From the NCBI GenBank assembly GCA_014871385.1, contig CM026425.1, positions 12,633,821 to 12,697,820 on the forward strand: a stretch of DNA of 64,000 bases. Direction: 5' to 3'. A program made the position numbers and the translations under genes. Positions 40,566 to 64,000 of the stretch are shown here, in pieces (position 1 is the stretch's first letter; every line of letters begins with the position of its first letter). The notes beneath the pieces are model-generated. The model was given only the letters and a program-made list of their open reading frames with translations, had not been told where the DNA came from and did no database searches. This DNA is from Ceratodon purpureus. Its lineage: Eukaryota > Streptophyta > Bryopsida > Pseudoditrichales > Ditrichaceae.

Positions 40566-40568
40566 TTT

Positions 40569-40586
40569 TGGCGCCGCTGCCGGGGA
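40569..40586 (+). promoter_or_regulatory. Primer-binding site, tRNA-Asp type
   Basis: TGGCGCCGCTGCCGGGGA differs at one base from the complement of the plant tRNA-Asp 3' end (TGGCGCCGTTGCCGGGGA). It lies three bases after the LTR, where minus-strand synthesis starts. The following 0.5 kb (40587-41083) is an AT-rich leader without an ORF. Confidence 0.85.
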
Positions 40587-41581: not shown

Positions 41582-41585
41582 AGAC

Positions 41586-41885: not shown

Positions 41886-42157
41886 TCTTTATTCTAATTA
41901 AATGGAATAAAGAAAATGGTAAAGTTAGAGGAGGAAAGATTAAGGGAATTAGCCAAACTTGGGCGACAAAACTACTATAGACAATTCAGAGCACCTGTAA
42001 AACAAAACAAGGTTGGGAGAATCATAAAAAACTTTCTTAAGAGAAGTAGGGAAGTAATAGTTAAAAGAAATAGATAGAGTGAACAACAAAAATAAGTGAT
42101 TATTTTTCTTTAAGTAAAATTGGGGATAGAAGATCATTTAGGTCTAAGCTTCAATGC

Positions 42158-42742: not shown

Positions 42743-44439
42743 AAAGTTGGGTTAATGATATTGCAGATATTACTGAGGTAGAAACCACAACCCCTATTGA
42801 AACATACATAAGGGAAATTTCATTAGAAGACAATAGAAAAGAGTGGAATGATGAGGAAGTAGCTTATGAGGCATCTCTTCCAGAAACATTTCCAACTATA
42901 CAACCTTTTACCAACCCTTATGAACCATCTAATGATGAAAGTAATGAGGATTGGGAAGGGATAAATTGTTGGAGATTTTCATCAGGAGATTCCTCTGGGA
43001 GTAGTAGTAGTGAGAGTAGTGATACAAGGAGAGAAACAAGCGAAGAAGAATTGTTAAGACCTACTTCTTCACCTCCTTCACGACCTCCTCCCAGACCTCC
43101 AACTCCTCATCCTAGACCTCCACCACCCCCACCACCACTACCACCTCCACCACAGACTTTACCACCTAATATCATGGCACAACAAAGGATTTTAAACATA
43201 GCACCATATCCTATGTACCATGGATATCCAGGGTCTGATCCCGATAGACATTTGGAAAGATTTAGAGTGGTTGCACAAGCAAATCAGTTACCTGAACATT
43301 TATATTTAAGCACTTTCCCAAGCACATTGCTTGATGATGCTCATGAATGGTATGTCCAATTGCTAACCGTACCCACAAGATGGGAAGATTTAAGGAGAGC
43401 TTTTCTTGATAGGTTTCGACCTAGATCATTTATACCAGGGTTAATCGACAGATTTCGAACGATAAGAATGAGTATAAATGAGGGTATAGATTCCTATTAT
43501 ACAAGATTTAATGCTCTTCTAAAGAGATGGACAAATCATGGATTAACTGATCAAGTATTAGCATGTACCTTTGTAGGAGGGGTTTGGCCTGATGAGTTAA
43601 GAATTTACTTAAAGGAACGAAACCCCCAAGACATTGCTAGTGCTTATACACAAGCTAAAACTTGGGAAGAGGCTAGAGTAAATACTGATTTTGCACAATA
43701 TGCAGAAGTATATCCACCTAGGAGAGAAGGTTATGATCATGCTCAAGGCATGGATGCTTATGGCCGTGATCATTATCCTTATTTACCTCCAGCTAGATCA
43801 CAACTACCAGTTTTGACTTATCCTTCAAATCCCATAGTCATGAATCCTCAACCTTTAGCAATTAAAGCCCCTACAGATGATATATTAATGAACAACATTA
43901 CTAAATTAGAGAAAAAATTAAATGAACTATCGGTACAAATAACTCATGGGAAAGATAAACGTTCAAAACCTACAAATATGCGTGCCAATATGTGGTGCAC
44001 TAATTGTAATGGACATGGACACCTTTCCAATGAGTGTTACACTCCGATAGGTGGGGAATTTAGTAATAAACCTAAATGTAGTTTTTGTGGAGGACCTCAT
44101 GACGTATCTAAATGTTGGAATTTGGGGAAAGTAGTAGCTGCAGTGAGTTCTAATTTGCAGGCAAACGGGACAAATAATAACAAAGCACCTTATAGTGTAA
44201 CTTCAAAACGTCCGTTTACTAGACCAAATGTAGGACCACCTTATAGACCTGGGGATGGGAGACCAAGGTGGAATGATACTTATAATGCCGCACCTGTGTG
44301 GAATGGACCGCCTACTAATCCTAATACCCATAGATATGGAACTCCTGAGAAAGGAAAACACTTAGTGTGTTATAACTGTCAGGAATTAGGACATATGGCG
44401 AGAGATTGTCCAAATCCAAAGAAACAAAATTGGGTATAA
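42619..44439 (+). CDS. Gag polyprotein with zinc knuckles
   Basis: The open frame begins at 42619; the first ATG in the strongly Gag-like part is near 43174. An acidic segment and a Pro-rich hinge are followed by a retrotransposon Gag domain (PYPMYHGYPGSDPDRHLERF, LDDAHEWYVQL, WEDLRRAFLDRFRP). Near the C-terminus lie CTNCNGHGHLSNEC (CX2CX4HX4C), CSFCGGPHDVSKC (CX2CX3HX4C) and CYNCQELGHMARDC (CX2CX4HX4C). The gene ends at TAA 44437-44439. A further knuckle, CGRCKQSGHIANNC, follows immediately in the pol frame. Confidence 0.85.
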   Translation, partial: EFFEESIYHRGWRKFSTPTQTNFETPKPYLDEAVQTFVTGIESWVNDIADITEVETTTPIETYIREISLEDNRKEWNDEEVAYEASLPETFPTIQPFTNPYEPSNDESNEDWEGINCWRFSSGDSSGSSSSESSDTRRETSEEELLRPTSSPPSRPPPRPPTPHPRPPPPPPPLPPPPQTLPPNIMAQQRILNIAPYPMYHGYPGSDPDRHLERFRVVAQANQLPEHLYLSTFPSTLLDDAHEWYVQLLTVPTRWEDLRRAFLDRFRPRSFIPGLIDRFRTIRMSINEGIDSYYTRFNALLKRWTNHGLTDQVLACTFVGGVWPDELRIYLKERNPQDIASAYTQAKTWEEARVNTDFAQYAEVYPPRREGYDHAQGMDAYGRDHYPYLPPARSQLPVLTYPSNPIVMNPQPLAIKAPTDDILMNNITKLEKKLNELSVQITHGKDKRSKPTNMRANMWCTNCNGHGHLSNECYTPIGGEFSNKPKCSFCGGPHDVSKCWNLGKVVAAVSSNLQANGTNNNKAPYSVTSKRPFTRPNVGPPYRPGDGRPRWNDTYNAAPVWNGPPTNPNTHRYGTPEKGKHLVCYNCQELGHMARDCPNPKKQNWV

Positions 44440-46800
44440 TCCTTTATGTGGGAGGTGTAAACAAAGTGGTCATATAGCAAATAATTGTACAGCTCCAGCA
44501 CCTGTGAAGAGTGTTCAATTTAGTGAAATTGAAAACTCAAGGAATGTGAATCAAATCACACAATATGAAAGAGATAAACCTCAGGAGGTTTATATAACAC
44601 GTGTACAAGCCAAAAAGGCTATGGTTGAAAGTGATCAACATAGTAGCTCTGATAGTGACTATAGAAGTAGTAGAGTGAGAAAAAACAACACACCTTCAAA
44701 AGTAGTTAAGGAGAAGGATGTTGTAAAACCTAAACCAATATTTCCCTTAATACCTCCAAACATTCCTATAAATAGTGAGAAAACAATACCATTAGAAGAA
44801 CCTAAGGAGAAGGATAAGGGTAAGCAACCAGTTGAAGAAACTACAGTATTACCTCAAGATTTACCAAATAATTTTGCTAACTTGCCTAGTACCTCAAATT
44901 CATTACCTACGTTTTATAGACCACCTAAAAAGAAACTAAAAGAAACACCAACCATTCCTAAGAAAAGGAAGTATAATCGCACAATGAAATTGTCCGAGGG
45001 AATGAATCCATATGATATCTTAACAAATATGGATAAAATCCAACCTGACATTTCTTTGAGGCAATTGTTAGCAATAGCACCTAAATGTAGAGGTGAACTA
45101 AGTTCTTCGTTGGTTAGAAAAAGGAGTAAAATCGTAGATGTGCATGATATATCCTTGGACCCTGGAGCACCTACTGTGGATGTAATCATAGATGGTTCTC
45201 TAATTGAAGGAGTCCAAGTAGATAGTGGTTCTAGTGTCAACTTAATGAATGTTGACACTATGGAAGAACTAGGATTAACTCATATGACTTCCACTCCTAT
45301 TATCTTAAGAATGGCAGATCAAAGTCGAGTAGTACCATTGGGTATTTTGAGAGGAATAGTTACAACTATAGGAGGACTTAACTTTAAGATTAATTATATA
45401 ATCTTTAAAGTGAGTGAATCCATATCAACATACCCAATATTATTAGGTCGTCCATGGCTTAAATCTGCTAGAGCTAAAGATAATTGGGGAAAGGGAACAT
45501 TAACTATAAAAGCAAAAGGGAAACGGGTTGTATTACCAATGTTCCCAGTTAAATATCATGGTGAGACTCAAGAAGAAGACACAGATGTCACTTCTGAAGC
45601 CTCATATGATTCAAATAGCGAAAGTACTAAAGTAGTAGAACAGGAGAAAATGCCTGAGTTTAGATGTTTAGGGACTGGAGAATATTCCTTTCTGAATAAC
45701 GAAGTAGATTCAGATGATGCTATTCTAGCATGGGAAAATTCGCCAGTACTTAATGTAACCGCCGAAATTGAGTCGGAATTAGAACCTCAATATTTGAGTG
45801 ATTCTGAAGAATTAATGGAAAACATGTCTCATATAAAAGGTAGTAATATAAGTCCTGTTAAAAGCACTTGCATTGATATGAATTTGGGAACTCCAGAGGA
45901 GCCCAAAAACATAAGAATTTATGAAGGATTAAATCCAAAGGAATATGAACAATGGTTTAAATTCTTTAAAGAATGTAAAGATGCATTTGCATGGACTTAT
46001 AAAGACCTTAAAGGAATACCTCCAGAAGTCTGTCAACATAGAATTATTTTAGAACCTAATACAAAACCGGTAAGACAAAGACAATATCGTATGAACCCAA
46101 AATATTCTCTCATGGTTAAAGAGGAAATAGATAAACTACTAGAATGTAATTTTATATATCCAGTACCTTATAGTGAGTGGGTATCTCCAATTGTTGTGGT
46201 GCCTAAGAAGAACGGGAAGTTAAGGATTTGTCAGGATTTCAGAAAATTAAATAGTGTCACTAAAAAAGATTATTTTCCTTTACCCTTCACGGATGCAATC
46301 CTTGATGGTGTAGGAGGACATGAATGTTATTCTTTTTTAGATGGATTTTCTGGTTATAATCAAGTACAAATCGCCCCGGAAGATAAATCTCTAACAACTT
46401 TTACAACTGATTGGGGAACCTTTGCTTATAATGTCATGCCCTTTGGATTGTGCAATGCACCAGCTACTTTCCAGAGAGCAATGACAACAGCTTTTCAGGA
46501 ATATTTAAGAAAATTTATTGAAATTTTCTTAGATGATTTTTGTGTCTTTAGTCCTAAAGATGAACACCAGAAATGTTTAAAGAAATGTTTTGAACAATGT
46601 GAAAAATATGGTATTTCAATAAACGCAGCCAAGTCTGAATTCGCTGTACCTTGTGGACGATTAGTGGGTCATATAGTTTCAAAAGAAGGTATAGGTGTTG
46701 ATCCAGATAAAGTAGCTGCTATCAAAAAATTAGAAATACCTAAACATATGACAGAACTTAAAGGATTTTTAGGAGCTTCTGGATATTATAGAAGATTTAT
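44438..46800 (+). CDS. Pol 5' part: protease and reverse transcriptase, interrupted
   Basis: Frame 2 is open from just before the Gag stop, beginning with a zinc knuckle; the first internal ATG is at 44504. An aspartic protease with DSGSS (about 45221) and LLGRPWL follows a long Ser/Lys/Pro linker. RT motifs include FIYPVPYSEWVSPIVVVPKK, LRICQDFRKLN, FGLCNAPATFQRAM and FLDDF (catalytic Asp pair; F in place of the usual Y). The frame ends in the connection region at YYRRF, cut by the Mutator-like element at 46801. The +1 relation to Gag implies frameshifting or an indel. Confidence 0.85.
46791..46800 (+). repeat. Target-site duplication of the Mutator-like insertion, left copy
   Basis: GAAGATTTAT, repeated at 56060-56069. 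Ten bases, in the 9-11-bp range of Mutator-like insertions. Confidence 0.85.
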
Positions 46801-46856
46801 GGGGAAAGGTCGTATGTGAGCGGAGAGCGAAGAGCGGAGAGCGGAGAGCGGAGATT
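46801..46856 (+). repeat. Left terminal inverted repeat
   Basis: About 55 bp with iterated GAGCGGA. It pairs with the right end apart from a 7-bp insertion (TGAGCGG) there. Confidence 0.85.
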
Positions 46857-49298
46857 GAAGAGCAGAAAATAGACATTTATATTGTCATTATAAATTCAAT
46901 CATCCCCTATGACCGTGGATATTTTGCTCAATACTTTTATTATTTTTCAATTTTGAAATAAATTTAGTATATAATCTGTTGATTTAGATTCTAAATATAG
47001 CAATATTTTGGCATGTTTCAAGCAAGTTCAATCTCCATGGATAGAATTCCTTTTCTTCACTGTGAATAATTTAGGGCTGACGTCATCATGACATTAGTGT
47101 ATGGTCAATAATTGTCTACTTTCAATAATATGTTCTATTTTCTTTTTAATCCTTGTTTTGTATTAGATAGCCGTCTAAATTTTTTTAATCTTTTCCTTAA
47201 TATATCTTATCTCATATTATCTCATCTTATCTTTCTCATGTTTTTATATTGGCTTTACTGTTCCTGTTATTTACATTTTGCTTGACTTTTAAAAGAATTG
47301 TTTATGTGAGGGTGTATATTGTTTGTATGTGAATGTGTATGAACCTAGATGCTCTGTGGAATTGCCTCGTGTGCAAACATGTTTGCTGGTGTAAGTGACT
47401 TTGTATTTGCGAATGTTGGTGAGTGTAATTTGAGCATGTGTGATATGTAGTGCATGTTTTTCAAACTATTAAATCAAAGAGCACAATGTGTTACGAAGGA
47501 ATTGTTTTTGATTTAGGATTTTATAATAGAATTGACGTACATCTTTTTAACTTTCATCGCCATCAAATTCTATTTCATGAAGTTCTATCTGTAATTGCAT
47601 TGTTTTTGTCTAATCATAAAAACCGCACTACTCTATATAATGGCAAGGACTTTGGAAATGTCAAGATCAATGTTGTCAACTATAGTAGCTCCAATGCAGC
47701 ACTTGTATCCTTGGATAAAGATCTGTACTGTAGTAAAGATCTATCATCTAAGCTAAGATTGTTAGTAAGTTCATACTAAAAACATGTGTATTTGAATGAT
47801 AATTGTTGATACAATTGTCCTAAATCATTATAAGGAACAACCTCGGTGCAAGTGTGACTACATAAGGAGTTTTAGAATACACTTGAAGGCATGCATGTGT
47901 GAGTATAAACTCATTAATACTGTGAAATTGCAAAAGGCTTTTTAAATCAGTTATAAATTTTTAATGGTTATCGGCTACTTTGATAAATAATAATGGGAAT
48001 TTACCATTCTCCATGGATAGTCAAGAAAAGATAAATTATGGTGGTTAGAAGTTCAATAGTGATCATTTAAACACCTTTGCTGTACATAGTAGCCGCTGAT
48101 GATGTAGTATAATAACTAGAAAGTAACTAGGCACTGTTGGTTGGGCAAGAAGATTAAATGTGGTAGATATCTTCATTTGGAAATATAGGATTATATTAGG
48201 ATCAGAAGAGAGAGGCGGTTAATAAAGAAAAAGAGCGTTAGGGTTTTCTAGAAAGGATAAGTAAAAAGCGAAAAGGACTGAAGACCATCCTTGTACAATG
48301 ATTTTGATTGTACATTAACACTTTTTAGAAAATGAAAGATAAAATCTCTTGAACCATTAATCTAGTGTAAATAAGATGGTGTGGAAAAAATATGATATAG
48401 AGATGGAATTCTAAGAATATAAGAACATGAAGTGCAATAAGCACAAGGATGAAGAATAGAATAGATTCTTTATTTATGGTTTTTTTTGGAAGCATATAAT
48501 GAGCTTTGAAAGATAATCTACTTTTAACTATGATTGTTGAAATTTAGAGCAAATCCATAGCCAATTAGACTAGACTTTGCCAGCTAGGAAAAAAATGGTA
48601 GGATGCGAGCCAATCATGGTAGTTACAACTTATTGGTGACATAGAATTTAAGCTTCATTTAAAAAGTTTAAAATTTAAGGTAGGCTTCTGTAGATATAAA
48701 AACTTTATTACAATAAAATATATAGAAAAGCTCATACTTGTATTTGCTTGTTAAAAAGGTGTTAACAAGACAATGATATCAATTTGTACTTAAAGTAAAT
48801 CATGGCACTCCTTATCATCAACTTAAAAAGGAAGATAGACAACAAAGATTTATCTAACTTATTATTACCAAATTGAGAAAAAAGTGAAAAAATGAAAATC
48901 CCTAAAAAATTGATACATTTTCAACCTCCATTTTTAAAGTGAAAACAACCTTTACCACAAAGATATTATTGCGTTTTTTGCTACAGTAGGATAAAACATA
49001 CAATAGACGCACGAGACCTTTTGCAATCATAATCATTATAAAAGAGATCTTGAAACAAAACGATACAACGTTCAACAAAAAATGAGAACATTGAATGCAA
49101 AGAAACTATTTGTAGAATTACACAACATCTTTAGACTTTAAAACATGAGACAAGCCAATCCACAATAACGTTCGAATAATTGTATCTTAAATGTATGAAC
49201 AAGCATACTAACAAATACCATCTCCTAAAAATTACCCAATTGCCATTATAATATTCCAAGAAAGTCCTCATCAACAAAACAAGACAGCATGCCGGTAG
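46857..49298. other. AT-rich left interior of the Mutator-like element
   Basis: No gene supported. One 109-codon ORF (47450-47779) is the only sizeable frame and looks like chance or relic. Confidence 0.5.
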
Positions 49299-52200
49299 AC
49301 AAAGTACGAAAACAAGTAAAACAAAACAACGCAAGTTGCAAAAGATATAGCGCAACACTTTCATATAGCTTTTTCCTCCAAAAGTAAACAAATCTCACCA
49401 TGCTTGATGCAATCAATCAATTCAAAAAAACACAAACAGAGAACTTCAAATAAGAGTATGAGCAAGCTTCAACCCATTCTAACAAAACATTATTCCATGG
49501 TCTATGTACAAGACATTCACTTGGTTTGGTCAATAACTATAAAAGCACTAAACCACTACATACACTATATAATCCAACTAAAACAATCAAAGTGATAACA
49601 AAAGAGGCTCCCAAAATGCATTCCATCTCACCTCTAAACATAATCATGAAGATTCATACTACCATTCAAAGGCGGCCTAGATTTTCAAGGTTCTCAGACC
49701 CCCTCATGTTTGAGATCCAATATCTCCCAAACCAAACAAAACCAAGGCTTCAAACTTCGTACACACATGTGATACCTCACAAAGTAGCCTTCTACAAAAT
49801 CTCATTTCCAAAGGCGTCGCCGATTAGCGTCAACACAATGGAAACCAAAGTCCAAAATCTGCCATTTTTTCCAGAAACCCGACCGCGCCCTGGAGGCTGG
49901 GAAGGGGCTCTCGGTGCCGAGAGCCCCTTCCCAGCCTCAAGGGCGCGGTCCTAAAAGGGCCCTTTTCAAGCCCATGATGTGGCTCTCGGCACCGAGAGCC
50001 CACAATTGGACTCCAAGTAGGGGGCATTAACATGGCAAACAGTGGCAGAATGGATGCCAAGGTTTTCAGACCCCCTCATGTTTGAGATCCAATATCTCCC
50101 AAACCAAGCAAAACCAAGGCTTCAAACTTTGTACACACATGTGATACCTCACAAAGTAGCCTTCCACAAAATCTCATTTCCAAAGGCTTCGCCGATTAGC
50201 GTCAACACAATGGAAACCAAAGTCCAAAATCTGCCATTTTTTCCAGAAACCCGACCGCGCCCTGGAGGCTGGGAAGGGGCTCTCGGTGCCGAGAGCCCCT
50301 TCCCAGCCTCAAGGGCGCGGTCCTAAAAGGGCCCTTTTCAAGCCCATGATGTGGCTCTCGGCACCGAGAGCCCACAATTGGACTCCAAGTAGGGGGCATT
50401 AACATGGCAAACAGTGGCAGAATGGATGCCAAGGTTTTCAGACCCCCTCATGTTTGAGATCCAATATCTCCCAAACCAAGCAAAACCAAGGCTTCAAACT
50501 TTGTACACACATGTGATACCTCACAAAGAAGCCTTCCACAAAATCTCATTTCCAAAGGCTTCGCCGATTAGCGTCAACACAATGGAAACCAAAGTCCAAA
50601 ATCTGCCATTTTTTCCAGAAACCCGACCGCGCCCTGGAGGCTGGGAAGGGGCTCTCGGTGCCGAGAGCCCCTTCCCAGCCTCAAGGGCGCGGTCCTAAAA
50701 GGGCCCTTTTCAAGCCCATGATGTGGCTCTCAGCACCGAGAGCCCACAATTGGACTCCAAGTAGGGGGCATTAACATGGCAAACAGTGGCAGAATGGATG
50801 CCAAGGTTTTCAGACCCCCTCCTGTTTGAGATCCAATATCTCCCAAACCAAGCAAAACCAAGGCTTCAAACTTTGTACACACATGTGATACCTCACAAAG
50901 TAGCCTTCCACAAAATCTCATTTCCAAAGGCGTCGCCGATTAGCGTCAACACAATGGAAACCAAAGTCCAAAATCTGCCATTTTTTCCAGAAACCCGACC
51001 GCGCCCTGGAGGCTGGGAAGGGGCTCTCGGTGCCGAGAGCCCCTTCCCAGCCTCAAAGGCGCGGTCGGGTTTGGGGCTTGATGGGCCCTCATCGACCAAT
51101 TCTTACTTGTAAAGGGACTGGTTAGGGCCCCTTAGGTCAAATCCTCGACCGCGCCGTTGAGGCTGGGAAGGGGCTCTCGGTGCCGAGAGCCCCTTCCCAG
51201 CCTCAAAGGCGCGGTCGGGTTTGGGGCTTGATGGGCCCTCATCGACCAATTCTTACTTGTAAAGGGACCGGTTAGGGCCCCTTAGGTCAAATCCTCGACC
51301 GCGCCCTTGAGGCTGGGAAGGGGCTCTCGGTGCCGAGAGCCCCTTCCCGGCCTCAAAGGGGCGGTCGGGTTTGGGGCTTGATGGGCCGTAATTGACCAAT
51401 TCTTACAAGTAAAGGGACCGGTTAGGGCCCCTAAGTCCAGAAACCCGACCGCGCCCTTGAGGCTGGGAAGGGGCTCTCGGTGCCGAGAGCCTCTTCCCGG
51501 CCTCAAAGGCGCGGTCGGGATTGGGGGGATATAGGCCCTTAGTATTCCTTTTTTTTAAGGAAGCAGCCACTTACGCCCCTAAAGACGCGCATTTGTATGT
51601 AAAAGGGTCCTTAGCGACCTCAAAAAGCCCTTTTTTTAAGAAATGGTCCCCATATGACCCTTTACCTTCGCGTTTTTACATAAAAAGGGACCCTTATGAA
51701 CCTTAGAGGTGTAGAACCCGACCGCGCCTTTGAGGCCGGGAAGGGGTTCTCGGCACCGAGAGCCCCTCCCCAGCCTCAAGGCCGCGGTCGGGTTTCTGGA
51801 CTGAAGGGCCCTAACCGGTCCCTTTACTAGTAAGAATTGGTCAATCACGGCCCATCAAGCCCCAAACCCGACCGCCCCTTTGAGGCCGGGAAGGGGCTCT
51901 CGGCACCGAGAGCCCCTTCCCAGCCTCAAGGGCGCGGTCGGGTTTTTGGACTTAGGGGCCCTAACCGGTCCCTTTACTAGTAAGAATTGGTCGATCACAG
52001 CCCATCAAGCCCCAAACCCGACCGCCCCTTTGAGGCCGGGAAGGGGCTCTCGGCACCGAGAGCCCCTTCCCAGCGTCAAGGGCGCGGTCGAGGATTTGAC
52101 CTAAGAGGCCCTAACCGGTCCCTTTACAAGTAAGAATTGGTCGATGAGGGCCCATCAAGCCCCAAACCCGACCGCCCCTTTGAGGCTGGGAAGGGGCTCT

Positions 52201-53193
52201 CGGCACCGAGAGCCCCTTCCCAGCCTCCAGGGCGCGGTCGGGTTTCTGGAAAAAATGGCAGATTTTGGACTTTGGTTTCCATTGTGTTGACGCTAATCGG
52301 CGACGCCTTTGGAAATGAGATTTTGTGGAAGGCTACTTTGTGAGGTATCACATGTGTGTACAAAGTTTGAAGCCTTGGTTTTGCTTGGTTTGGGAGATAT
52401 TGGATCTCAAACATGAGGGGGTCTGAAAACCTTGGCATCCATTCTGCCACTGTTTGCCATGTTAATGCCCCCTACTTGGAGTCCAATTGTGGGCTCTCGG
52501 TGCCGAGAGCCACATCATGGGCTTGAAAAGGGCCCTTTTAGGACCGCGCCCTTGAGGCTGCGAAGGGGCTCTCGGCACCGAGAGCCCCTTCCCAGCCTCC
52601 AGGGCGCGGTCGGGTTTCTGGAAAAAATGGCAGATTTTGGACTTTGGTTTCCATTGTGTTGACGCTAATTGGCGTCGGCTTTGGAAATGAGATTTTGTAG
52701 AAGGCTACTTTGTGAGGTATCACATGTGTGTACGAAGTTTGAAGCCTTGGTTTTGTTTGGTTTGGGAGATATTGGATCTCAAACATGAGGGGGTCTGAGA
52801 ACCTTGAAAATCTAGGCCGCCTTTGAATGGTAGTATGAATCTTCATGATTATGTTTAGAGATGAGATGGAATGCATTTTGGGAGCCTCTTTTGTTATCAC
52901 TTTGATTGTTTTAGTTGGATTATATAGTGTATGTAGTGGTTTAGTGCTTTTATAGTTATTGACCAAACCAAGTGAATGTCTTGTACATAGACCATGGAAT
53001 AATGTTTTGTTAGAATGGGTTGAAGCTTGCTCATACTCTTATTTGAAGTTCTCTGTTTGTGTTTTTTTGAATTGATTGATTGCATCAAGCATGGTGAGAT
53101 TTGTTTACTTTTGGAGGAAAAAGCTATATGAAAGTGTTGCGCTATATCTTTTGCAACTTGCGGTGTTTGGTTTTACTTGTTTTCGTACTTTGT
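49299..53193. repeat. Large inverted repeat with hairpin-bearing tandem arrays
   Basis: The left arm starts at GACAAAGTACGAAAACAAG (49299) and the right arm ends with its complement (53193). Between lie tandem 372-bp units (left arm: about 49.68, 50.05, 50.42 and 50.80 kb; right arm: one to two) and then 150-bp units on both sides of a centre at about 51.54-51.71 kb. ORFs of identical sequence appear on opposite strands of the arms (for example 49526-49954 and 52966-52538), which is a symmetry effect rather than evidence of genes. Confidence 0.92.
51011..52250. repeat. 150-bp tandem units each holding a 42-bp perfect palindrome
   Basis: Perfect palindrome with arm GGCTGGGAAGGGGCTCTCGG and a two-base centre TG. 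It starts at 51011, 51161, 51311 and 51461 on the left. On the right, related copies start at 51734, 51884, 52034 and 52184, some with one substitution. Flanking CGACCGCGCC and GGCGCGGTCG extend each stem to about 35 bp. Spacer sequence has GACCGGTTAGGGCCC-like and CAATTCTTACTTGTAAAGGG-like boxes. Confidence 0.9.
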
Positions 53194-55999
53194 TTGAAGG
53201 TTTGTTATGGCTTTTCTAGCACTTTGGGTTAATCAATTCTTTTAAAATTCCTTTATATTATTTAATTACACATGAAATTATGCATGATCCTATTGTATGC
53301 TTTGTGTATTGGCAATTGCCTTCTTTTTTAGAGTACACAATTTGAGTTAGATGTTAAGTCCTTTACATGTTTATAGTACCGAACGTATGTCTTTTCACAT
53401 TATTTTTTGATGATTGGTGCCGGAGATGTAGAGCATTTTTGTAGAAATCACATAAAAATTGACATCTCATACATTTCTCTCTTTAGTTATAGGGTTCTTT
53501 TTCTTTGAGCAATCACCCTAACATTTTGGAAGTTGCAATTCTACACTAGATTGCTTGCAGTTGAAGTTAGTCATTGATGCCTTGAACAATGCATTTTGAT
53601 CCATTGACCACTGTATTGAAATAGAAACTCTGACATTTGACAAAGCACCTCACTCTTTATGACAGCTCCATTAGATGAGATACTTATCTAGCAATAGAGA
53701 TAATAGATTATCATCATCGATTATGTTTTGATTGATTTTTTCTATATGTTGTTGACCAATATATTTATCATGTAATCACTTTGCAATCTTAAGATCCACA
53801 GAAACATCCTCATGAGCTTTTAGATGTTGACTATACACACGTGGTTTTCGGCTTTGCTTGTTTCTCTTGCTCATTTCCTTGTGTCTTTTTCACAGTCTAA
53901 ATGTATTTTTTTTCTTAAAATACGCTCCTCAACACTTTTGATTGTTTCTTATGAGGTTTGACATATTGGCTTAGTTTTCATGTCCTTTATCTTAGCCTGC
54001 ATTACTGCTCTCTCATCTGTTTCTTTACTCAATTTTGTCTCCATATTATAGAATATAGCTAAATAATTATCAAGCTATAAATTCTTTAATCAGCCATTGA
54101 AAACTCACAGTCCTATGTTTTCAAAGACAAAGACACTTTTTTAATAGATAATCAGTGTGTCATCACGCTATCTTTAAGAAACCTTAATTTTTGAATTCTA
54201 ATCTAGTGATTTTATGTAATGTATATGTTAATACACACATAAACTCACTTCCAAGCCTCAACACATAAATGCAATTTCAAAGTACACACACTTTTCCAAC
54301 ATATTACAAATAAATTTTGAAATCACTTCTTCAATCTCTCCTACAAAAATGCACAACATACTATGCCAAGAGGCAGACTCGACTTGACTTCAATTTCTTC
54401 AATTAGTGGTTGTGACTTTCTTTGACTCTTGCTTTGGCTCTTTATTTTCCACCTCTACTTATCGTTACATCAGGCCATCATAGTCATTGCATAAATTCGT
54501 AATAGTATACATTTCTTTAATGACACAAAGTCCCACAAAGAAGTGTCACCTATCTTGTAAATTTATGTATTAAATATAAATTTGAAAGGATAACGCTTCC
54601 AAAAAAACTTCATTATCTATGTTTGAACTAGATTTTGCATCTTTTATGTCATGTCATGAACTAAACTTTGTACTCTAATAATGAAATGTTTGACAAAAAT
54701 CATCAATGAAAGCAATAAGAATATTGATCACCATGCATTATAATCTATATCCATCTAACTTGTTATCTTTTAAAGGACAATTGTTGAAATTGGCTTTTTG
54801 AAAGTTTAGGCAAGTACTTGTAATGTCAAATTTAGATACGATTTTTAAAAAAATTCTGAGAGTTTTTTCCCTAACAAATGTTTTGAAGGAATCTATTTTC
54901 TTTGAAAAATTGGACACGAAAAAAAAATAATAATGGTACTTGAAGTGGAATTTTGTGTTGTGTAGGCAATTCAGGGAGTTGTGCTAAATACATATGTTAC
55001 CTTTCACACTTTTTCTATAAATATTCAATGTTGTCATCTTTGAGGTTTTCCAAAAGAGAATTACTTTTAGTACAATGTTCATTCCGCAAAAGATCAAAGT
55101 TTTTTCACTGTTTCAAACAATGCACCAATAAAACTGTTTCTTTCTTTTATAAAAGTTAGAAACTTTGTTTTCTTAGGTTTATTCTTTTTTTCACTAAAAT
55201 GATGAATATTAATCTTTATTTTGACAGTTTAGATTGGGACTTTATAAAGTAATGGAATCTCTAGGAAAGAAATTATATGAATTTGACATTCTTATGTATT
55301 CAACTTTATAAAAAATATTGTTTTCTGCATGCTACACTTGTCTTCTCTCTGTAATTTATTTTGGTACAATTAGCTATCTTAGAAGTCTTTGTCAAGCATG
55401 AAAACCCTAAAATCCACAATGTAAGAAGCCTAAGAAAAAAAGTTAGAGTGAGTCAACCTAATTAAAAGTCAAGCTAAGAAAGTTTGTTTTTGGATTTCAA
55501 TTGTTATGATCATCTAATCTCTAGGGTCAATTCAGATGATTTTTTTTGTCCTATCTACAACAATAATCTTATTAAAGATCTTATAGTCAGAATTGAAAAC
55601 TGATGATTTTTTAGTCATTCATTCTTTCTACATTAGAAATGGCAGTTTTGAGAGTTTTTAGTGAAATATAGTCAAAGAACTTTAGGGGTTAAATTGCCCC
55701 TACAACACCACTAAACCAATGTCCAACATAATTTCTTATTAGAAATGGATCAAATACTATCTACTATACACAATAATCTTCATCCATCTATTCGTGTAAT
55801 ACATAAAATATTGCGTACTTGTAAGAAAAATGGAGATCAAAACTGATAAAATCAGACTTCAACCCACGGACATAGGACCAATTTTTTTACTAAAATTAGG
55901 AATATTCTAAAAAGATTCGAATAATCTAAACATAGATTCTAATTTTAGAAAAAAATTAACTATTTTTAGAATCTGCTCTCCAATTTCTGCTCTCAGAGC
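53194..55999. other. AT-rich right interior of the Mutator-like element
   Basis: No gene supported; long T- and A-rich stretches with many stops. A 68-codon ORF at 54953-55159 appears to be chance. Confidence 0.5.
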
Positions 56000-56059
56000 A
56001 GAAATTCTCCGCTCTCCGCTCTTCGCTCTCCGCTCACCGCTCACATACAAGCTTCCCTC
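56000..56059 (-). repeat. Right terminal inverted repeat
   Basis: TCTCCGCTCTTCGCTCTCCG followed by CTCACCGCTCACATAC and GCTTCCCTC. Just inside it, GCTCTC and GAGAGC-type half-palindromes around 55975-56010 add a small hairpin (TTTCTGCTCTCAGAGCAGAA). Confidence 0.85.
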
Positions 56060-57918
56060 GAAGATTTATCTACTTTTATGCAGAAGTAGCAGCTCCTTTA
56101 ACACATCTAACAAAACAAACCGATACTCCTGGTGTTTGGACAGAAGAGTGCACAAAAGCATTTAATAAACTTAAAAAACGGCTTAGTAATGCTCCCATCC
56201 TAATACCACCAGATTGGGAGAAACCGTTTGAAGTTTATGTAGATGCATCAAATTATGCTATTGGAAGTGTTCTCAGTCAAAAAGACGCAAAAGGTCATGA
56301 TCGACCTATATATTTTTCTAGTAGACAATTAAGTGCTGCTGAGAAAAATTACTCTGTAACGGAGAGAGAAGGGTTAGGAATGATATATTCAGTCCAAAAA
56401 TATAGACATTATTTATTAGGTTATAAGTTCACTTTCCATGTAGATCATGATGCACTTAAATATATGGTTAATAAACCACAATTGAGTGGGAGAATAGCTA
56501 GATGGGTATTGTTACTTCAAGAATTTGATTTTACGGTTAATGTAAGGCCTGGCAAAAAACATGCCAATGCTGATTTCTTATCACGGATTAGTAAGGAAGT
56601 GAATCCAGAATCCATAGATGATAGTTTTCCAGATGCGCATATTTTTCAAGTGGATATCATTCCAGCAGAATATGCTGATGTTATTCATTACTTGAGTACC
56701 AATACCTTCCCTCAAGATTATACAGATAAACAAAAACAAAAATTAATATTTAAATCTCAACCATATACATTAATTGCAAAAGTTTTATATAAAAGGGGTA
56801 AAGACGGACTTTTACGGAGATGTATTAATCCAAGTGAGGTACCATTAATTCTTAAAGGTTGTCATGACGCTGCATGTGGCGGTCATTTTGCCGGAATGGT
56901 AACTGCACATAAAGCGTTACAATCCGGATATTGGTGGCCAACACTCTTTGGGGATGCACATAGATATACTAAAAAATGTGATCCATGCCAAAGAGTGGGA
57001 AAACCTACACCTTCAAAGGCAATGCCTTTAAATCCAATTTTAGCTCAAACGCCGTTTGAGAAATGGGGAATTGATTTTGTAGGACCTATTAAACCACCTA
57101 GTCGACATGGTCGAAATAGATACATATTAATTGCAACTGAATATGTAACTAAATGGGCAGAAGCTCAACCTACGAAAGCCGATGATGCTAAAACTGTTGC
57201 CAAATTTTTATATGAAAATATTATTACAAGATTTGGATGTCCAAAAGAATTAGTAAGTGATCGGGGAACTCATTTTCTTAATGAAATAATTGAACAACTA
57301 ACTGAAAAATATTCAATTAAACATAGAAAATCTACACCGTATCACCCCCGTGCTAATGGTCAGACAGAGAAAACAAACGGTATATTATGTCGGATAATTA
57401 CTAAAACTGTACAGGGTTCAAATACGGATTGGGACGCAAGAGTACCAGATGCATTATGGGCTTATCGATGTGCATTTAAAGTATCTACAAAATTTACTCC
57501 ATTTCAATTAGTTTACGGTCAAGAAGCTATTTTACCAATTGAAATGGAACTCCCGTCTTTAAGAATTGCATTAGATGAACGATTAGGAGATGAAGAATCT
57601 TTAAGACATAGGCTTTATATGCTCGAAAAATTAGATGAAACGAGAGCCCAAGCATATCTTAATAATGAAGCTATTCAAAAACATCGTAAAACATATTATG
57701 ATAGCAAATTGGAACCCAAAGTTTTGAATCCTAATGATTTAGTATTATTATATGATAGCCGATTTCAAAAATTTCCAGGAAAATTTAGAATGCGTTGGTT
57801 TGGACCATACCGGGTATTAAAATCGTATCCCAATGGTTCAGTTGAACTTCAAGATTTTGCAGGAAAAATTCATGCCACAAGATATAATGGTTTTCGTTTG
57901 AAACCATACATAACTTGA
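56060..57918 (+). CDS. Pol 3' part: RNase H and integrase
   Basis: Open from the right copy of the target duplication (56060-56069) in the frame of the upstream part. RNase H: PFEVYVDASNYAIGSVLSQ, AVTERE-type TEREGL, FHVDHDAL and HANADFLSRI. Integrase zinc finger: GCHDAACGGHFAG with CDPCQRVGKP. Catalytic residues: WGIDFVGP, LVSDRGTHF and an E in RANGQTEKTNG. A DLVLLYDSRFQKFPGKFRMR C-terminal domain follows; no chromodomain. It ends at TGA 57916-57918. Confidence 0.9.
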
Positions 57919-57935
57919 GGACAAGTTCTAGATTT

Positions 57936-57945
57936 AAGAGGGGGG
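57936..57945 (+). promoter_or_regulatory. Internal polypurine tract
   Basis: AAGAGGGGGG 18 bp after the pol stop, nearly identical to the tract at 63451 before the 3' LTR. In standard gypsy elements the plus-strand primer tract is next to the 3' LTR. Here 5.5 kb of extra sequence lies between, so this may be a relic or a second plus-strand initiation site. Confidence 0.7.
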
Positions 57946-59548
57946 CAGTAAGGGTAAAAAATTCAAAAATTTTAAAAACTGTCCTACTTAAGTACTAGAA
58001 ACTGTGAAATTTTGAAGAAATTAAAAAACCAGCGATCTAAAAAAAAAATTAAGTTACAAAAAGCAAAAGTTCAACAAATTTAAATTCTGAACTGGAGAAA
58101 TTTTCGAAGCAAATGGAAATTACTAATTGACAAGTAGACACTAACTAAAATAATGAGTAAGTAGTAATGATCAGAAAATACAATTAGTGAGTGGAAAGAC
58201 GGCTGATATGATAACATGAATTGGGGGCTGTGATCATGATGACCACGTTGCATGGAAATGAGTATAAAATTCCACTAACTGTCAAATAGACAAAAGAGAC
58301 TGGTCGAGTCGAGTAGACCACATCATCTTCTCCAAAACTGGAAAACAGAACCTCAAAACAAACACATTTTCTTGGAGAAGCACCGGCTGCGAGTCTGAGA
58401 GAAGTGGGCGAGGTTTTTGTCAAGTAGACGGAGCGCTACATTGTGAGCGATCAGGGTTAGGAGTGGAGAGAGATAGTTGTCAAGTGGACACAGAGTGAGT
58501 ATCGTGAGGAGATCAGAACGAGACGAAGCGAGATACCGAGAGGATCGACAGAAAAGCAGTTCAGTTGAGGGTCACAATTTGAGTAATTGATGTGTGAGGG
58601 ATACTGAGAGATCCGAGAGAGAAAGGAGTGAAATAGAGGGTTGCATTGCTACATTTTACAACATGTGTATGTGAGAAATTGAGCGACTGAAGAAGGAGTG
58701 AGGCGTATTTCAGTTGGCATATCGGGAGGTGAGTTGTGTTGTTGTTGATTTCGCATACTGTTTTGTCAATTGGACAACCTGATTAGCATAGAAATACTTA
58801 GGTCAAGTGGACACAATGTTGATGATAGAGATGTTGCGATAATATCGATGTGAGAAACAATTGGATACGATACATTGGGTCAACTGGACTCAGGGTTTTC
58901 TGACTGTTGCGAGTGTGTCAATTGGAAACAGTGTGACAGAAGGGGAAGACGAAGCATTGCATCTTGAGAGGCATATCTCTCGTAGTCAAGTTGACACATA
59001 CATTCGGGTGAGTTTCATTGCATCCATTCTGATTGTGTCAAGTTGATTGCATGTTGTTTTCGCATCTTTGTTTTGTATGTCCAATTGAATTGTTACTTGT
59101 GGAAAACGGTGACTGTCCAGTAGACAAGAATGGAGAAAACACAAAACACAACTTGCCGAGAGAAAGAAAGGATAAAAGATCAAAGGAACGAAACTGAAAC
59201 TTGGTGCTGTGATGCATGATGATAGTAATGTAGGAAAATATTACAAACTGATTGCCGAGAGAAAGGGAGGAGAAGAACAGAAAGAACGAAGCTTAATATT
59301 TTCAATGGAATGTATGCTTAGACGATTGTGAAGTAGAAAATTAGGGATAGAAGTGATTGCCGAGTGGAAGAAGTGTTTTATAGTTTTAAAGTAAGGAAAT
59401 AACAAAGATAAAATTCCCGAGAGTTCAAGTAGACAGTGCCGAGAGTTTCAGGGAGAGTCAATGCCAAGAAAAATTTCAATTAGACAAAGTAAGAATTGAA
59501 GCAAACTAACTGCCGAGTGTGTAGTCTAATAGACAGAAAGAAGGAACA
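57946..59548 (+). other. Non-coding spacer dense in GTCNANTNGAC palindromes
   Basis: No ORF supported. Exact motif copies start at 58281, 58419, 58479, 58765, 58802, 58879, 58985, 59115 and 59524, with several near-matches between. Confidence 0.75.
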
Positions 59549-62500
59549 ATGGTAAACGAAGGTCAAGTTGACAGAGAAGGCAGAGGAACTGATCAAGGGA
59601 GGCTCCAACCCGAAGTTGCAGGATCGGTCAAATTGACAAGGCCAATTGCTCGGCCCAAGATGAAAGTGATGAAGAACAAGAAGTCGAAGAAGCCTGTGCT
59701 TGCGGATGCAATGCAACAGGACCTGTCAAGTGGACCAAGACGTCAAATTGAACACTTGGAGCTGAAGAAGATTGACCGGGAGGCATGGCCGCAATTTGAA
59801 GCCAACCGGGAAAACTTCGTGAAGGCAGTCTCTTTGGGACTTCGTGATGGTTGTCTTCGAGGATCAGGATGATGGGAGGATCAATCAATTTCTGACTTCT
59901 TCGGAGTATGGATCCAGAGGAATGGCCGTGGTGGATGGAAGAAGCGTACCTTTCAACTCGACAGCCATCTCCAAGATGTTGAAGCTGCATCAAGGAGACA
60001 ACTTGTTGATGGAAGAGGTGGGCGGTATTTCAGAGGACGATTTGACCAACGTCTTTGACAGAGCTGCCAAGACGCAGAGTGGCTACAAATTGGTGAATGC
60101 GAAAGAGACGTGGAAGGAGTGGCTACTTTTCTTCAATCAGAGGATTATGCTGGCGGAGAAGGGGCCTCTGATCATGTCGAAGGAAGGAGTAGCAGCCGCG
60201 ATTTACGGGTGGAATGGTGTCAAATTGAGTTGGGGAAACATTCTATTTGACAACATCAAGGTGGAGATTAGCAAGAAACACACGCGGTATCCAATCACAC
60301 TCTACAGTGCGATTTACCTCTCAGAGCTGACCAAGCCATCAAGTCAAGTGGATTCAGGTGTGTCAACTGGACCGGTGAGAGTGCTTCCAGACTTGCTCAA
60401 TTTGACAAGGGAACCAGAGCCTAGAGCCTCGACTCCATCATCCTCGAGAGCCAACAAAGTCAAGAAGAGGAGAGTAGAGGATAACTCCTTACCTCAATGT
60501 CTATTTGAACTGAACCCGAGGTTGGGAAGAGGAGCAAGATCAGCCAGTCAAGTAGACAATCGTGAACCTGCAAGGCAACCCGCGTTGCAGCTCACGCAGG
60601 CTGAGGTGGCTGCACAGCTCAAGGATGCACTGGTGAGAGAAACGCAGCTACGGTTGAAGATCAAGGAATTTGAGCGTACGGTGTTCAACTTGACCACTGA
60701 GAACAACCTAGCTGTGGAAGATATACGAAGGCTCAATACACAGTTGGCTAACTTGGCGGAATTGAATGAGGGGGGGAAGCACAATAAAGTGGACCACAAA
60801 AGTGCTTAGCTCATTGCCAATTTCAGCCATTGTTGTAAACACTAAGAAAAGTGCCATAAAATTTTTTGATATGTTAAAAGTGGGATGGGATATAGAAAAT
60901 AGACTTGGTCATCTGGAGTCCTGGAAATTTGCATAAGAAGGTAAGGTGTTTATGATGCCCTACGAGTACCTCAAAGTGCGACAAAGTGAATGCAGTCATT
61001 TGAAAAAGTTGCTAGAAAAGAGTGCAAACTTTGTCAGAAAACACTTTCCAGCGGATGGTGCCCTCCGTTTGTGAATTGTGGTCGTGGGAATGGGCACCAC
61101 CCACTTCGTTCGGAAGTTTGGACGGACGAGAAGTATATCTGGGATGTTTTTTAGGAGGGTCACTTCGGCGGTACTTTTTGTGAGTTTTTTTTTCAACGAA
61201 CATCGTTTTTTAAATTGGAAAAAACATCCTCTAAAGACAATAGAGGGCACTAAATGAAGAAATCAAGACTTCGGAAAAGTTCATTTTCATGATTTCGAAC
61301 TAGTGGTCAAATTTAGTTTCAATTGAGGATGCTCTTTTTATGAAGATGCGTGTAAGATACCTTATGACACCCTAGAAAGTGACTAAAATGCTCAAAAACT
61401 TCACCAAAATGCTCAAAATCAGCTTTGAGCTTTAAAAAACAGCACACTTCATATTCACTTCTTAGTGATCACATATTGCACTTTGTGGTCCACTTTATTG
61501 TGCTCTCCCCCTGAGGAATTGACGAAACCCACTGTAGCTGACATTGAGATTGACACTGGGAAGTCGTTCCAAGAGCTGTATAACGATGAGAAGCAGCACC
61601 GCATCGAACTTCAACGTCAATTTGACCAACTTAATGATGCCAAGACTGCCATTTCCAAGCTCTGCACCGAGGAGAGGAATGAGAAGAATAAGCTCAAGGC
61701 AGAGTTGGAAAGCTTGAAGAAAAATCCGATGGTGAAGGTTGTCAACCCCTCGGATTATGCGACTCTGAAGACCAATAACGAATTGTACCACCGTACTATC
61801 GAGATTGGTAAGAAGCAGTTGCAGGAGGCCCGGATGGAGAACAGGGCGTTGAGAGGAGAACTTTGGAAGGTCGACTTGACATCACCACCAAGTTATTCCC
61901 TTTTCCATGCATACGAGTTGCAAAGGGATAACTGGTTGGCTCTGGTGGGGAAAGACAGGGGATGTCTATTGGACAGTGGTGACTTCGATGCAGTATGGGC
62001 AGCGTCTAGTAGACACGCTAATCAGCAGAATCTCATCTGTGAGATGATCGCAAGAGGCGATGTCCAGTTGACCGACCAGAAGAAGCTGTTGCTCCCCATA
62101 GGTCACTTGGGAGCTCGAGTGGTGTTGTATTATACAACACTGGAGGAGCAACTCCAGAAGAGACGTCAACTTGACATGTCGGTGGAGAGTCACAGACTGG
62201 TGAAGATGGGCGATTCGAGTAGACAGGTGGTGGATGTTGCGGAGAAGGTGCCAAGTGAGGAGCTCAAGGAGTGGACAGCAACTTTGGAGGGGCTGCTCAA
62301 GGAGTTTGATGACCGTGATAACATCCTTGTCAAGTTGTCATGTGTGCTGAAGAGGGAGACTATGCTCAGAGGGGCGAGTTGACCACGGCACACTATGTCT
62401 ACGGGATGCACAAGGTGAGGCAGCAGATCATGGACACCTTGAGAGAGTTGAAGAAGGGCCATCTATTCATCACCAGTCATGATCTTCAAGTCGAGTTGAC

Positions 62501-63332
62501 CTTGCCTCCACCCACATATAAGGCACCGGGGTGGCTGTCTATTCGAACACCGGTTACAGGGTCTATATTGACAGTCAAGTACTTGGGAAATTATGCGAGT
62601 CTATTTGACAATGAAGCGGTTTTTCCGCTACCCACGTGGACTGCGATTGAGTGGCTGCTGGAGGATTACGGGCTGTCTCGAAGGGAGGAGCGGTCATGGG
62701 ATTTAATTTACAAGGAGATTGTGAATGTCAATTGGACCGATGCGGCTCCGGAGGCTGTGAGGACAAATGGACATTTCTGCGATTGTAAGAGGAGGTTCAA
62801 GTGGGCTCCAGATAGTCTAATTGACTCGGTGGAGTATAATTGGCCTCTGATCCCTGGTCAATTTGACACGGCATTGAATTGTGCCACGGCCTATGAGGGC
62901 TTCTGGCAGATTCACCACACACACACCGACCCTGTGTGTTTCCGAGCAGCCATATTTTCTAAGTTTTTAGCTCGGATATGCAGGGATTTTAAGGTGGTGG
63001 TGAATGTAAACCGTTACGATGAGAGGAGGCCGGAGTTCTTGATCAACCTCAAGCTCCGTTACCACTCAAGTCGTTGGGGGAGGATGCTGGAAGTCATGGC
63101 CATGACTCATTTTCTTTACGGGTCTAATGGATGCTTCATCAACGAATTCAGGGGAACTCGGAAGATAGCTATTGACAATTGGCTAACCTTCCAGCATTCC
63201 AACAACACTGAATTACTTCGGAAGGATGATGAAGTGAGGAGGGAAGTGTCCAAGCTCATGGCACAGCGGATCCAGAAGGAGAGCCATTACGGTGACCAGC
63301 ACCGTAATCACCACCGACGTCATCATGTCTAG
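59549..63332 (+). CDS. Retrotransposon 3' accessory protein(s), Transposase_32-like plus coiled coil
   Basis: Coding blocks 59549-59830, 59835-60769, 61512-62380 and 62340-63332 make one reading path after removal of the MITE (60770-61511) and two frame changes near 59830 and 62340-62380. The first domain (EAWPQFEANRENFVKAVSLG, then GMAVVDGRSVPFNSTAISKM and a PITLYSAIYLSE block) resembles the putative plant transposon protein. A Pro/Ser linker, then coiled coils on both sides of the MITE (ETQLRLKIKEFERTVFNLTT; KLCTEERNEKNKLKAELESL) follow. The last 300 residues are globular with WTAIEWLLEDYGLS and a His-rich end (HRNHHRRHHV). Function unknown; DNA binding is only a hypothesis. Codons are interwoven with GTCNANTNGAC motifs. 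Confidence 0.65.
60770..61511. mobile_element. 742-bp MITE inside the accessory ORF
   Basis: Terminal inverted repeats GGGGGGGAAGCACAATAAAG and its counterpart GGGGGAGAGCACAATAAAG on the opposite strand, continuing through TGGACCACAAA. Flanked by TGA (60767-60769 and 61512-61514). Removing it with one TGA puts the reading frame back in phase. A 3-bp duplication fits PIF/Harbinger or CACTA-like elements; the ends do not decide which. It holds no exact GTCNANTNGAC copy. Confidence 0.85.
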
Positions 63333-63450
63333 TTGACAGTAGCTACAGTGGGTGTGCAAGCTAATCTTTGTATATAATTTTTGAGTCTAGTTGACATAGT
63401 GTCTAGTAGACAATGCTGTAAATGTGGAACTTGCCGGGAGTCAAGTAGAC

Positions 63451-63461
63451 AAAGAGGGGGG
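63451..63461 (+). promoter_or_regulatory. 3' polypurine tract
   Basis: AAAGAGGGGGG three bases before the 3' LTR; plus-strand primer site. Confidence 0.85.
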
Positions 63462-63464
63462 CTA

Positions 63465-64000
63465 TGTGAGCTGACTTTTTTTGAGAAAAGTCCTTTTCAG
63501 CAAAAACAGTGTAAATAGGACCAAGTTACCATGTCAATTTGATATCCATGTAGATAGTGGCTGTAGAAATCTGGTTGAGAGTCAAATGGACAATAGTGTA
63601 GAATTCAGGGGACATGGCCCTACCTAGAGACACGACTTGTCAAATTGACTCTACGTACAGGCACACCCTTTAGAAATTAAGGCATAACTAGGAATTAAGG
63701 AAGAAGAAAGAATTACTTCACCACACCACACAACACTGTGTGAGTGATAGTCACATTATGTAAAAAAATATAAAAATAGAATTCCATTGTCTAATTGATT
63801 GTCAACTTGACTCTGAGTAGCTCACTGTTTAATGGATTCACAATGCCCTTTGTCAATTTGAACTATAGCTTTGAGGCACAGTGTATTAATCTGCAGAACT
63901 GTAGAATCAGAATGGAGAACTGGAGCAAACTGATTACTGTCTAATTGATTTGCGAAGCTTACTGTCAAATTGAAACTGCAGATCTGCTGAACAGTGAATT
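63465..64000 (+). repeat. 3' LTR, first 536 bp
   Basis: Starts TGTGAGCTGAC and matches the 5' LTR over all visible bases except one T/C change. It runs off the window. Confidence 0.93.

Follow-up and report, generated by a model that had tools for sequence, protein, structure and literature searches.

In a 64-kb stretch of the Ceratodon purpureus genome (C5:12633821-12697820, hereafter the window), we found that a Ty3/Gypsy-type long terminal repeat (LTR) retrotransposon carries a dispersed palindrome, GTCNANTNGAC, which is kept by selection at the nucleotide level, also inside codons of the element's accessory gene. The exact word occurs 41 times in the window against 0.82 expected, with the largest of 100 dinucleotide shuffles reaching 5, and its copies are split among the 5′ LTR (8), the interval 58281-63450 (30), and the visible part of the 3′ LTR (3). 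An earlier sequence-only reading of this DNA had reported 29 copies between 58.1 and 63.46 kb; the cluster was correctly seen, though the recount gives 30, and its eight and three LTR copies were both returned by the exact search. No exact copy is found in 1-38831, in the leader, gag, or pol, or in the two insertions at 46818-56042 and 60783-61505, just as had been said of gag/pol and of both inserted elements. The density in gag/pol, on which the claim of a regional word had been made to depend, is hence zero, and that claim stands. The element is laid out as follows, with accessory gene denoting an open reading frame (ORF) in sense orientation within the 5.5-kb segment from pol to the 3′ LTR.

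38832-40565, forward strand: 5′ LTR; 8 exact copies (38945, 39003, 39165, 39415, 39470, 39522, 39546, 39743) and 10 more lacking only the last C.
40566-43050, forward strand: a stretch from about 40569 that we take to be a primer-binding site, and the leader; no palindromes.
43051-44439, forward strand: gag (Retrotrans_gag, zinc knuckles); no palindromes.
44504-46819, forward strand: first part of pol (weak protease match, reverse transcriptase); no palindromes.
46818-56042, no strand assigned: nested 9.2-kb insertion within pol, with inverted ends; no palindromes, and thus an internal control.
56380-57918, forward strand: second part of pol (RNase H, integrase); no palindromes.
57919-59548, forward strand: non-coding stretch past pol; 10 exact copies (58281, 58308, 58419, 58479, 58765, 58802, 58879, 58985, 59115, 59524).
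59549-60809, forward strand: N-terminal half of the accessory ORF, in two frames in the window copy; 5 exact copies in three phases (59562, 59627, 59725, 60362, 60547).
60783-61505, no strand assigned: small insertion breaking the accessory ORF, with matching inverted ends; no palindromes.
61506-63332, forward strand: coiled-coil-like part and C-terminal domain of the accessory ORF; 11 exact copies inside (61616, 61870, 61964, 62004, 62062, 62165, 62490, 62599, 62727, 62815, 62857) and one across its end (63327).
63333-63464, forward strand: short stretch ahead of the 3′ LTR; 3 exact copies (63385, 63401, 63440).
63465-64000, forward strand: 3′ LTR, cut by the window end; 3 exact copies (63581, 63639, 63801).

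The assignment to Ty3/Gypsy comes with paired LTRs (38829-39364 and 63465-64000), which are 99.8% identical over 536 bp and differ at 1 of 536 positions, the LTR ends being set by eye, and with Pfam matches over the cut-off in Gypsy order (Retrotrans_gag, zf-CCHC, RVT_1, RT_RNaseH, Integrase_H2C2, and rve); the protease match in pol falls under the cut-off. The nested insertion is delimited by an inverted match between 46802-46854 and 56006-56057, with tandem heptamers at both ends. As a side observation, the two halves of 38832-63332 look compositionally different: the guanine-plus-cytosine content rises after pol, and the observed/expected CpG ratio goes from 0.17 in the LTR and 0.32-0.37 in the leader, gag, and first part of pol to 0.79 in the second part of pol and 0.62-0.75 in the 3′ region.

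Under second-order Markov controls, the 30 copies in 57919-63464 compare with a mean of 0.16 (at most 3 in 300 sequences) and the 8 in the 5′ LTR with a mean of 0.05 (at most 1 in 300). Among 25,600 palindromes with eight fixed letters, scanned in 8-kb windows, GTCNANTNGAC is the top palindrome of its region, with 33 copies in 56001-64000, while the maximum for any word in six shuffles was 4. Single matches are common genome-wide (6193 places, against 3757 for the reversed control word), and so it is the clustering that constitutes the signal. The two halves of the word keep one spacing: in the 5′ LTR and 3′ region, with the 3′ LTR excluded, half-sites pair 38 times at spacer 1, but 0 times or once at each of 11 other spacers. 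Outside full sites, the half-sites GTCNA/TNGAC are near background, at 5.5 per kb versus 5.3 and 6.9 in two controls, and the longer GTCNANT/ANTNGAC occur at 2.3 per kb versus 1.7 and 1.8. Here, we also noticed that the site is wider than its core and symmetric, T-GTC-(A>T>C)-A-N-T-N-GAC-A. Of 76 flanks, 41 have T/A adjoining the core (p 4e-6), T is not preferred further out, and G is avoided at N4 and N8, the first N of each half (3 of 76, p 2e-5). Taken by its sequence properties (the dyad, the fixed spacing, and half-sites near background), the palindrome appears to behave like a dimer site, as had been proposed. One-mismatch copies, earlier described as many, are indeed common; nothing but an outermost base is missing from all 10 such copies of the LTR and from 17 of the 22 of the 3′ region. 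In the LTR the incomplete sites all miss the same (3′) outer base (10:0, p 0.002), while the 3′ region is balanced (10:7). By eye, the consensus among the LTR sites is slightly richer.

The sequence-only reading had also held that the word is not a protein repeat, and two results bear this out. The coding copies begin in all three codon phases, and all four accessory pieces retain a clear excess over codon-preserving shuffles, the other control on which the claim had been staked. With 2000 synonymous shuffles per piece, the observed and mean counts are 3 versus 0.24 (reached by 1 shuffle), 2 versus 0.12 (reached by 9), 6 versus 0.31, and 5 versus 0.47 (the last two reached by none); gag and both pol pieces, entered in the same test, have 0 copies. 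Moreover, the flanks of the sites are unrelated, since 20 bases per side are on average 26% and at most 47% identical over 703 pairs, and no site overlaps any of the 24 tandem-repeat rows listed. Bases N4 and N8 form Watson-Crick pairs in 12 of 38 sites versus 14.2 expected, that is, without covariation, and on this ground a hairpin role was rejected.

Evidence for selection came from the other copies of the element in the same genome (362 Mb, 151 contigs). A protein search with the C-terminal accessory piece gave 113 matching places, among which 46 (the window's included) match at least 280 residues at 96% or better and 30 lie in an open frame of 1019-1020 amino acids with a match free of stops. 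Excluding the window's own, 29 copies, all distinct and taken as loci of about 4 kb, hold 19-26 exact GTCNANTNGAC words each. These were mapped by blastn on 61.5-64 kb of the window, with motif sites defined on the window copy and positions counted where at least 15 copies covered them; a shared variant was one in which at least two copies differ from the commonest base, gaps counting as differing. Shared variants are present at 0 of 144 fixed motif bases, but at 250 of 2270 other positions (Fisher 1.3e-7) and at 10 of 54 N positions of the motif itself (fixed versus N, Fisher 1.2e-6). At third codon positions, the figures are 0 of 30 fixed bases versus 153 of 563 others (Fisher 1.5e-4), and seven sites relaxed at one end give 0 of 49. 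When 18 sites were placed at random 5000 times, there were never fewer than 4 shared variants, with a mean of 15.6. Differences private to a single copy, in contrast, occur at 15 of 144 fixed bases and 262 of 2270 others (p 0.79), which indicates that inserted copies decay normally. That the fixed bases are without shared change while the N bases vary thus shows selection on the DNA word in the elements that spread.

To follow the word across related families, we fetched 15 loci by hand from the same genome around accessory-gene matches (L-numbers). L034 is a separate family, with 58% and 52% amino acid identity to the window in two C-terminal pieces and 41-42% in the rest; at the nucleotide level the two are 54% identical, falling to 35% at third codon positions. 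In 5 kb, L034 contains 22 exact GTCNANTNGAC words, as compared with at most 4 of any palindrome in ten Markov sequences; 14 are in two ORFs (all phases), 7 are outside, and one is at the end of a third short ORF. Of the window's 17 coding sites, 13 can be aligned to L034, where 5 are exact, 1 has one mismatch, and 7 are gone (three or more mismatches); conversely, 11 L034 sites aligned to the window comprise 5 exact, 1 one-mismatch, and 5 absent there. These alignments show the sites both persisting and turning over, in part at new, non-homologous places. L042 (85% identity) has 12 copies, some of which lie in LTR-like sequence. L036 belongs to a more distant family and has 34% amino acid identity, an accessory ORF of 988 amino acids, and a match to the window's integrase end of 76% over 134 bp. 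Here, the interval 119-4352 of its 5 kb contains 21 CCAA(N)TTGG palindromes (12 CCAANTTGG and 9 CCAATTGG, with spacer 0 or 1) and 0 GTCNANTNGAC; half-site pairs are lacking at spacers 2-6, with one more pair at spacer 7. Thirteen are in the accessory ORF, in three phases, and 8 are outside, and flank identity averages 29%. This family thus carries a different palindrome. Its decayed relatives L041/L056 (72%) and L043/L055 (65%) have 1-2 exact and 10-14 one-mismatch CCAATTGG words, compared with 3 in L031 and L032 and 7 in L034.

Altogether, 2 of the 15 stretches (L034 and L042) have GTCNANTNGAC of their own and 1 (L036) has CCAA(N)TTGG. A single lone GTCNANTNGAC is present in L038. Six stretches at 41-47% identity gave no convincing palindrome, and a search for seven-letter spaced words found nothing clear in the six palindrome-free stretches of L031-L038. 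We dropped L043 as a family with its own word, as its 9 GTCNANTNGAC copies sit in a remnant of the window family's LTR, and ascribed TnnTTTnnAAAnnA of L040 (8 copies, shuffles giving up to 6) to AT-richness.

The accessory protein has about 1020 amino acids and consists of an N-terminal part, followed by a long helical segment resembling a coiled coil and then by a C-terminal domain that is conserved. The single product 59549-63332 put forward by the sequence-only reading does not hold for the window copy, which is broken by a change of frame near 59.84 kb and by the insertion at 60783-61505. AlphaFold2 models of the C-terminal piece had a predicted local distance difference test score (pLDDT) of 82 and a predicted template modelling score (pTM) of 0.74, and those of the relative P0005 a pLDDT of 74 and a pTM of 0.48. 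The N-terminal part gave a sub-threshold hint of Transposase_32 (E 0.071), and PDB searches by sequence and by fold returned no convincing match, which does not imply that the fold is new. For the C-terminal piece, there are 31 relatives from other public sources (P0001-P0031; E 4e-118 to 7e-37), and Pfam gave no match better than E 0.015 over the 32 alignment members. DUF1985 was not matched in the window pieces, the 32 alignment members, P0032, or the ORFs of L031, L033, L034, and L036, a relation below profile sensitivity being possible.

These relatives are known as proteins alone, and in them we looked for peptides that GTCNANTNGAC can encode in any phase. In the 15 near relatives such peptides rank first among 256 palindromes of the same shape, and this ranking holds with the window's own site columns left out (14 columns versus 6.6 in shuffles). 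Peptide traces number 11 versus 0.55 in P0017, 9 versus 0.73 in P0005, 7 versus 0.81 in P0003, and 5 versus 0.60 in P0001; an equally extreme best word was reached by 0, 0, 1, and 11 of 400 shuffles, respectively. Among 25,600 palindromes, GTCNANTNGAC comes out on top in P0017 and P0005, takes second place in P0003, and falls outside the top three in P0001. For P0008 (45%), the best word is ATCNANTNGAT, one letter from GTCNANTNGAC, with 7 traces, spread over all three phases, versus 0.40 and none of 400 shuffles reaching it; because the low-complexity control, gag, reached 2e-8 for other patterns, we regard this result as only suggestive. Lineage-wide use of GTCNANTNGAC was rejected, as it comes 63rd and 62nd of 256 in two sets of distant relatives, with 7 and 9 proteins respectively.

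A second element in the window carries a dispersed palindrome of its own.

30173-37670, no strand assigned: separate element with GCTGNCAGC (15 exact; wider form TTGCTGNCAGCAA) around ORF 33138-35141.

All 15 GCTGNCAGC copies in the window lie within 30173-37670, with 0 elsewhere and 0.23 expected from second-order Markov sequences (at most 2 in 200). Its half-sites pair 15 times at spacer 1, 2 and 3 times at spacers 0 and 4, and 0 times at the other five spacers tested; its flanks are on average 26% and at most 50% alike. In ORF 33138-35141 there are 5 copies in three phases versus 0.66 by synonymous shuffle (0 of 2000), and eight loci (the window's own and 7 others in the genome) have 7-11 copies each in 5 kb. 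In proteins of the five relatives of this element, GCTGNCAGC ranks only 32nd of 256. By eye, the element's protein has a RING-like cysteine pattern. Elsewhere, the top word of the upstream region, ATCNGNCNGAT, was set aside as mostly a tandem array, 13 of its 17 copies being in 7137-8163. In the 74/149-bp tandem arrays at 7082-8280, most units contain ATCTGTCGGAT in one orientation or the other; further single copies lie outside the arrays at 12131, 13589, and 17414. Inside the 9.2-kb insertion, 372-bp and 150-bp tandem arrays form a large inverted arrangement at 49299-53193, in which the palindrome GGCTCTCGGTGCCGAGAGCC is abundant. ORF 9271-10878 has a sub-threshold match to a DNA N6/N4-methyltransferase (PF01555, E 0.0013).

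Our preferred reading, to which we give an even chance, is that GTCNANTNGAC is a selected cis-acting DNA site with the element's own accessory protein as its most likely reader; the dimer binding, the identity of the reader, and an anti-silencing or transcriptional effect are what we infer. The retrotransposon has spread about 40 copies over its LTRs and the pol-to-3′ LTR segment, coding and non-coding alike, and purifying selection keeps them while the element is active. An obligate dimer of a sequence-specific DNA-binding protein would recognise the dyad, a proposal made because of the dyad symmetry, the absolute spacing, the unenriched half-sites, the symmetric base preference at the flanks, and the frame-independent selection. 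The element's own protein would be the simplest reader because the word differs between families that share the accessory gene, surrounds that gene, and sits in the LTRs. This protein would coat the DNA of its own family, with TGTCNANTNGACA as candidate preferred target, and once bound would act on LTR chromatin or transcription, plausibly against silencing of the copies, by analogy with the VANC proteins taken up below. Several observations weigh against this account. Among the 15 fetched stretches, 11 (L031-L033, L035, L037-L041, L044, and L045) are without a convincing dispersed palindrome, although some of them may be one family and decay has affected several of L039-L045. In L031 and L033 the accessory frame is open (1060 and 1062 amino acids) and no such palindrome is present, so the accessory protein can exist without it; the earlier suggestion of this protein as the reader is accordingly kept in conditional form. 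Fold and domain searches of the protein give no hint of DNA binding, and the one-sided loss in LTR sites is an asymmetry that a pure dimer site does not predict. The site-rich LTR is the most CpG-depleted part of the element, unlike what long protection from methylation would leave, and a methylation-protection signature is hence not seen. Nor was constraint seen on GCTGNCAGC, where 6 of 88 fixed positions vary versus 202 of 4940 others in 5 copies, L049 and L053 of the 7 non-window loci having been left out as likely duplicates, though not identical.

The main rival, which we consider unlikely but well short of negligible, is that a host DNA-binding factor (an activator, insulator, or architectural protein) has been recruited by the element, in the way that Drosophila gypsy recruits Su(Hw), and that the accessory protein has another job. 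Accessory frames without the palindrome fit it, as do dozens of sites in the LTR and 3′ region, which would suit recruitment of an abundant factor, and we take the half-sites to resemble plant transcription factor words (TTGAC, CCAAT). However, half-sites near background and an absolute spacing are unlike single TTGAC or CCAAT boxes, and A, T, or C is tolerated at the fourth base. Related families within one genome also use different words, as relatives elsewhere apparently do, and besides the LTRs the word keeps around the accessory gene rather than the leader, gag, or pol. That the sites guide integration or interaction between elements (self-targeting of insertions or pairing of copies) instead of gene control would suit their position in the LTRs and beside the 3′ LTR, yet selection throughout the accessory coding region is not readily explained in this way, and we hold it to be improbable. 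An RNA-level role, raised by the sequence-only reading and here disfavoured, would mean that the motif serves to package, dimerise, export, or protect the genomic or accessory transcript. The genomic transcript would indeed take in the internal sites and some of those in the LTR, and LTR sites degrade with an orientation bias. On the other hand, the base preferences beyond the core are dyad-symmetric and thus alike on both strands, covariation is absent between N4 and N8, a hairpin could not pair A5 with T7 over a single intervening base, and no site lies in the 5′ leader. We hold this role to be quite improbable. Finally, the word might have no function and be spread by gene conversion, template switching, or tandem duplication, or reflect protein repeats or base composition. 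Dispersed repeats can have a mechanical origin, and the richer consensus of the LTR sites could be read in this way, but the flanks are unrelated, codon and Markov shuffles fail to explain the counts, no shared variants occur at fixed bases while the N bases vary, and the new L034 sites are at non-homologous places. The copy comparison refutes this possibility for the window's family, provided that the mapping is correct, and we assign it next to no weight.

Taken more broadly, transposable elements of this genome may carry private palindromic address words, set into LTRs, untranslated DNA, and the accessory gene itself, each read by the element's own dimeric accessory protein of an undescribed family. 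The words GTCNANTNGAC, ATCNANTNGAT, and CCAA(N)TTGG would have co-diverged with their readers, the unrelated GCTGNCAGC element would be a convergent case, and together they would form a general self-recognition or anti-silencing code that bends protein coding so that DNA sites are retained. We put this forward tentatively, as somewhat less than evenly probable.

Among known systems, the Drosophila gypsy insulator has about a dozen sites for Su(Hw), a host zinc-finger protein, in one 5′ untranslated stretch. The likeness is that short sites cluster in a Gypsy LTR element, binding of a chromatin protein being putative for the window element; the latter differs in having about 40 sites over the LTRs and 3′ region, within codons, and specific to the family. 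En/Spm encodes TnpA, which reads many short 12-bp subterminal motifs and counteracts methylation, but En/Spm is a DNA transposon with motifs near its ends only and none in the coding region, unlike the window element. VANDALs are Mutator-like DNA transposons, whereas the window element has LTRs, gag, and pol and is of Gypsy type. In the portions of the published accounts available to us, VANDAL words are 8-9 bp and family-specific and VANCs carry DUF1985 (PMC5735166, PMC10398659), and VANC targets are often tandem repeats in non-coding DNA (PMC5735166). As far as those portions go, in both systems the element has an added gene without catalytic function and repeats a short word, and related families carry different words; this is the part of the earlier VANDAL/VANC analogy that stands. 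The rest does not carry over, as the window word is an 11-13-bp dyad, dispersed and also in codons, with no DUF1985 recognised. Binding and demethylation belong to the VANC side and would be putative for the window element. Nearest in anatomy, again judging from partial texts, are Retand/Tat-type plant Gypsy elements, whose additional ORFs have a suggested DNA-related role (PMC11963269, PMC7264820). Retand genes are antisense and mostly encode TRP28, and about half of the elements have tandem repeats (PMC11963269). The long pol-to-3′ LTR region with an extra gene is shared, but the window gene is sense, and no dispersed palindrome is described for Retand in the parts available. TRP28 (PF04195) was not matched in the accessory gene or in antisense ORF 59628-59993, the only one listed there of at least 120 amino acids. 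Among the matches listed by our literature search, mostly without subscription papers, no title dealt with a palindrome dispersed through an LTR retrotransposon.

If true, this would be an undescribed case, within the literature searched, of an LTR retrotransposon with a dispersed, family-specific word selected inside its own codons. The comparison of shared and single-copy variants at fixed and free bases offers a general, experiment-free way to show selection on sites. The protein family of the candidate reader is also present in other public sources, and our Pfam and PDB searches returned no relative for it. Such a word would open to direct testing how a mobile element tells its own copies from thousands of others, and how recognition pairs change specificity.

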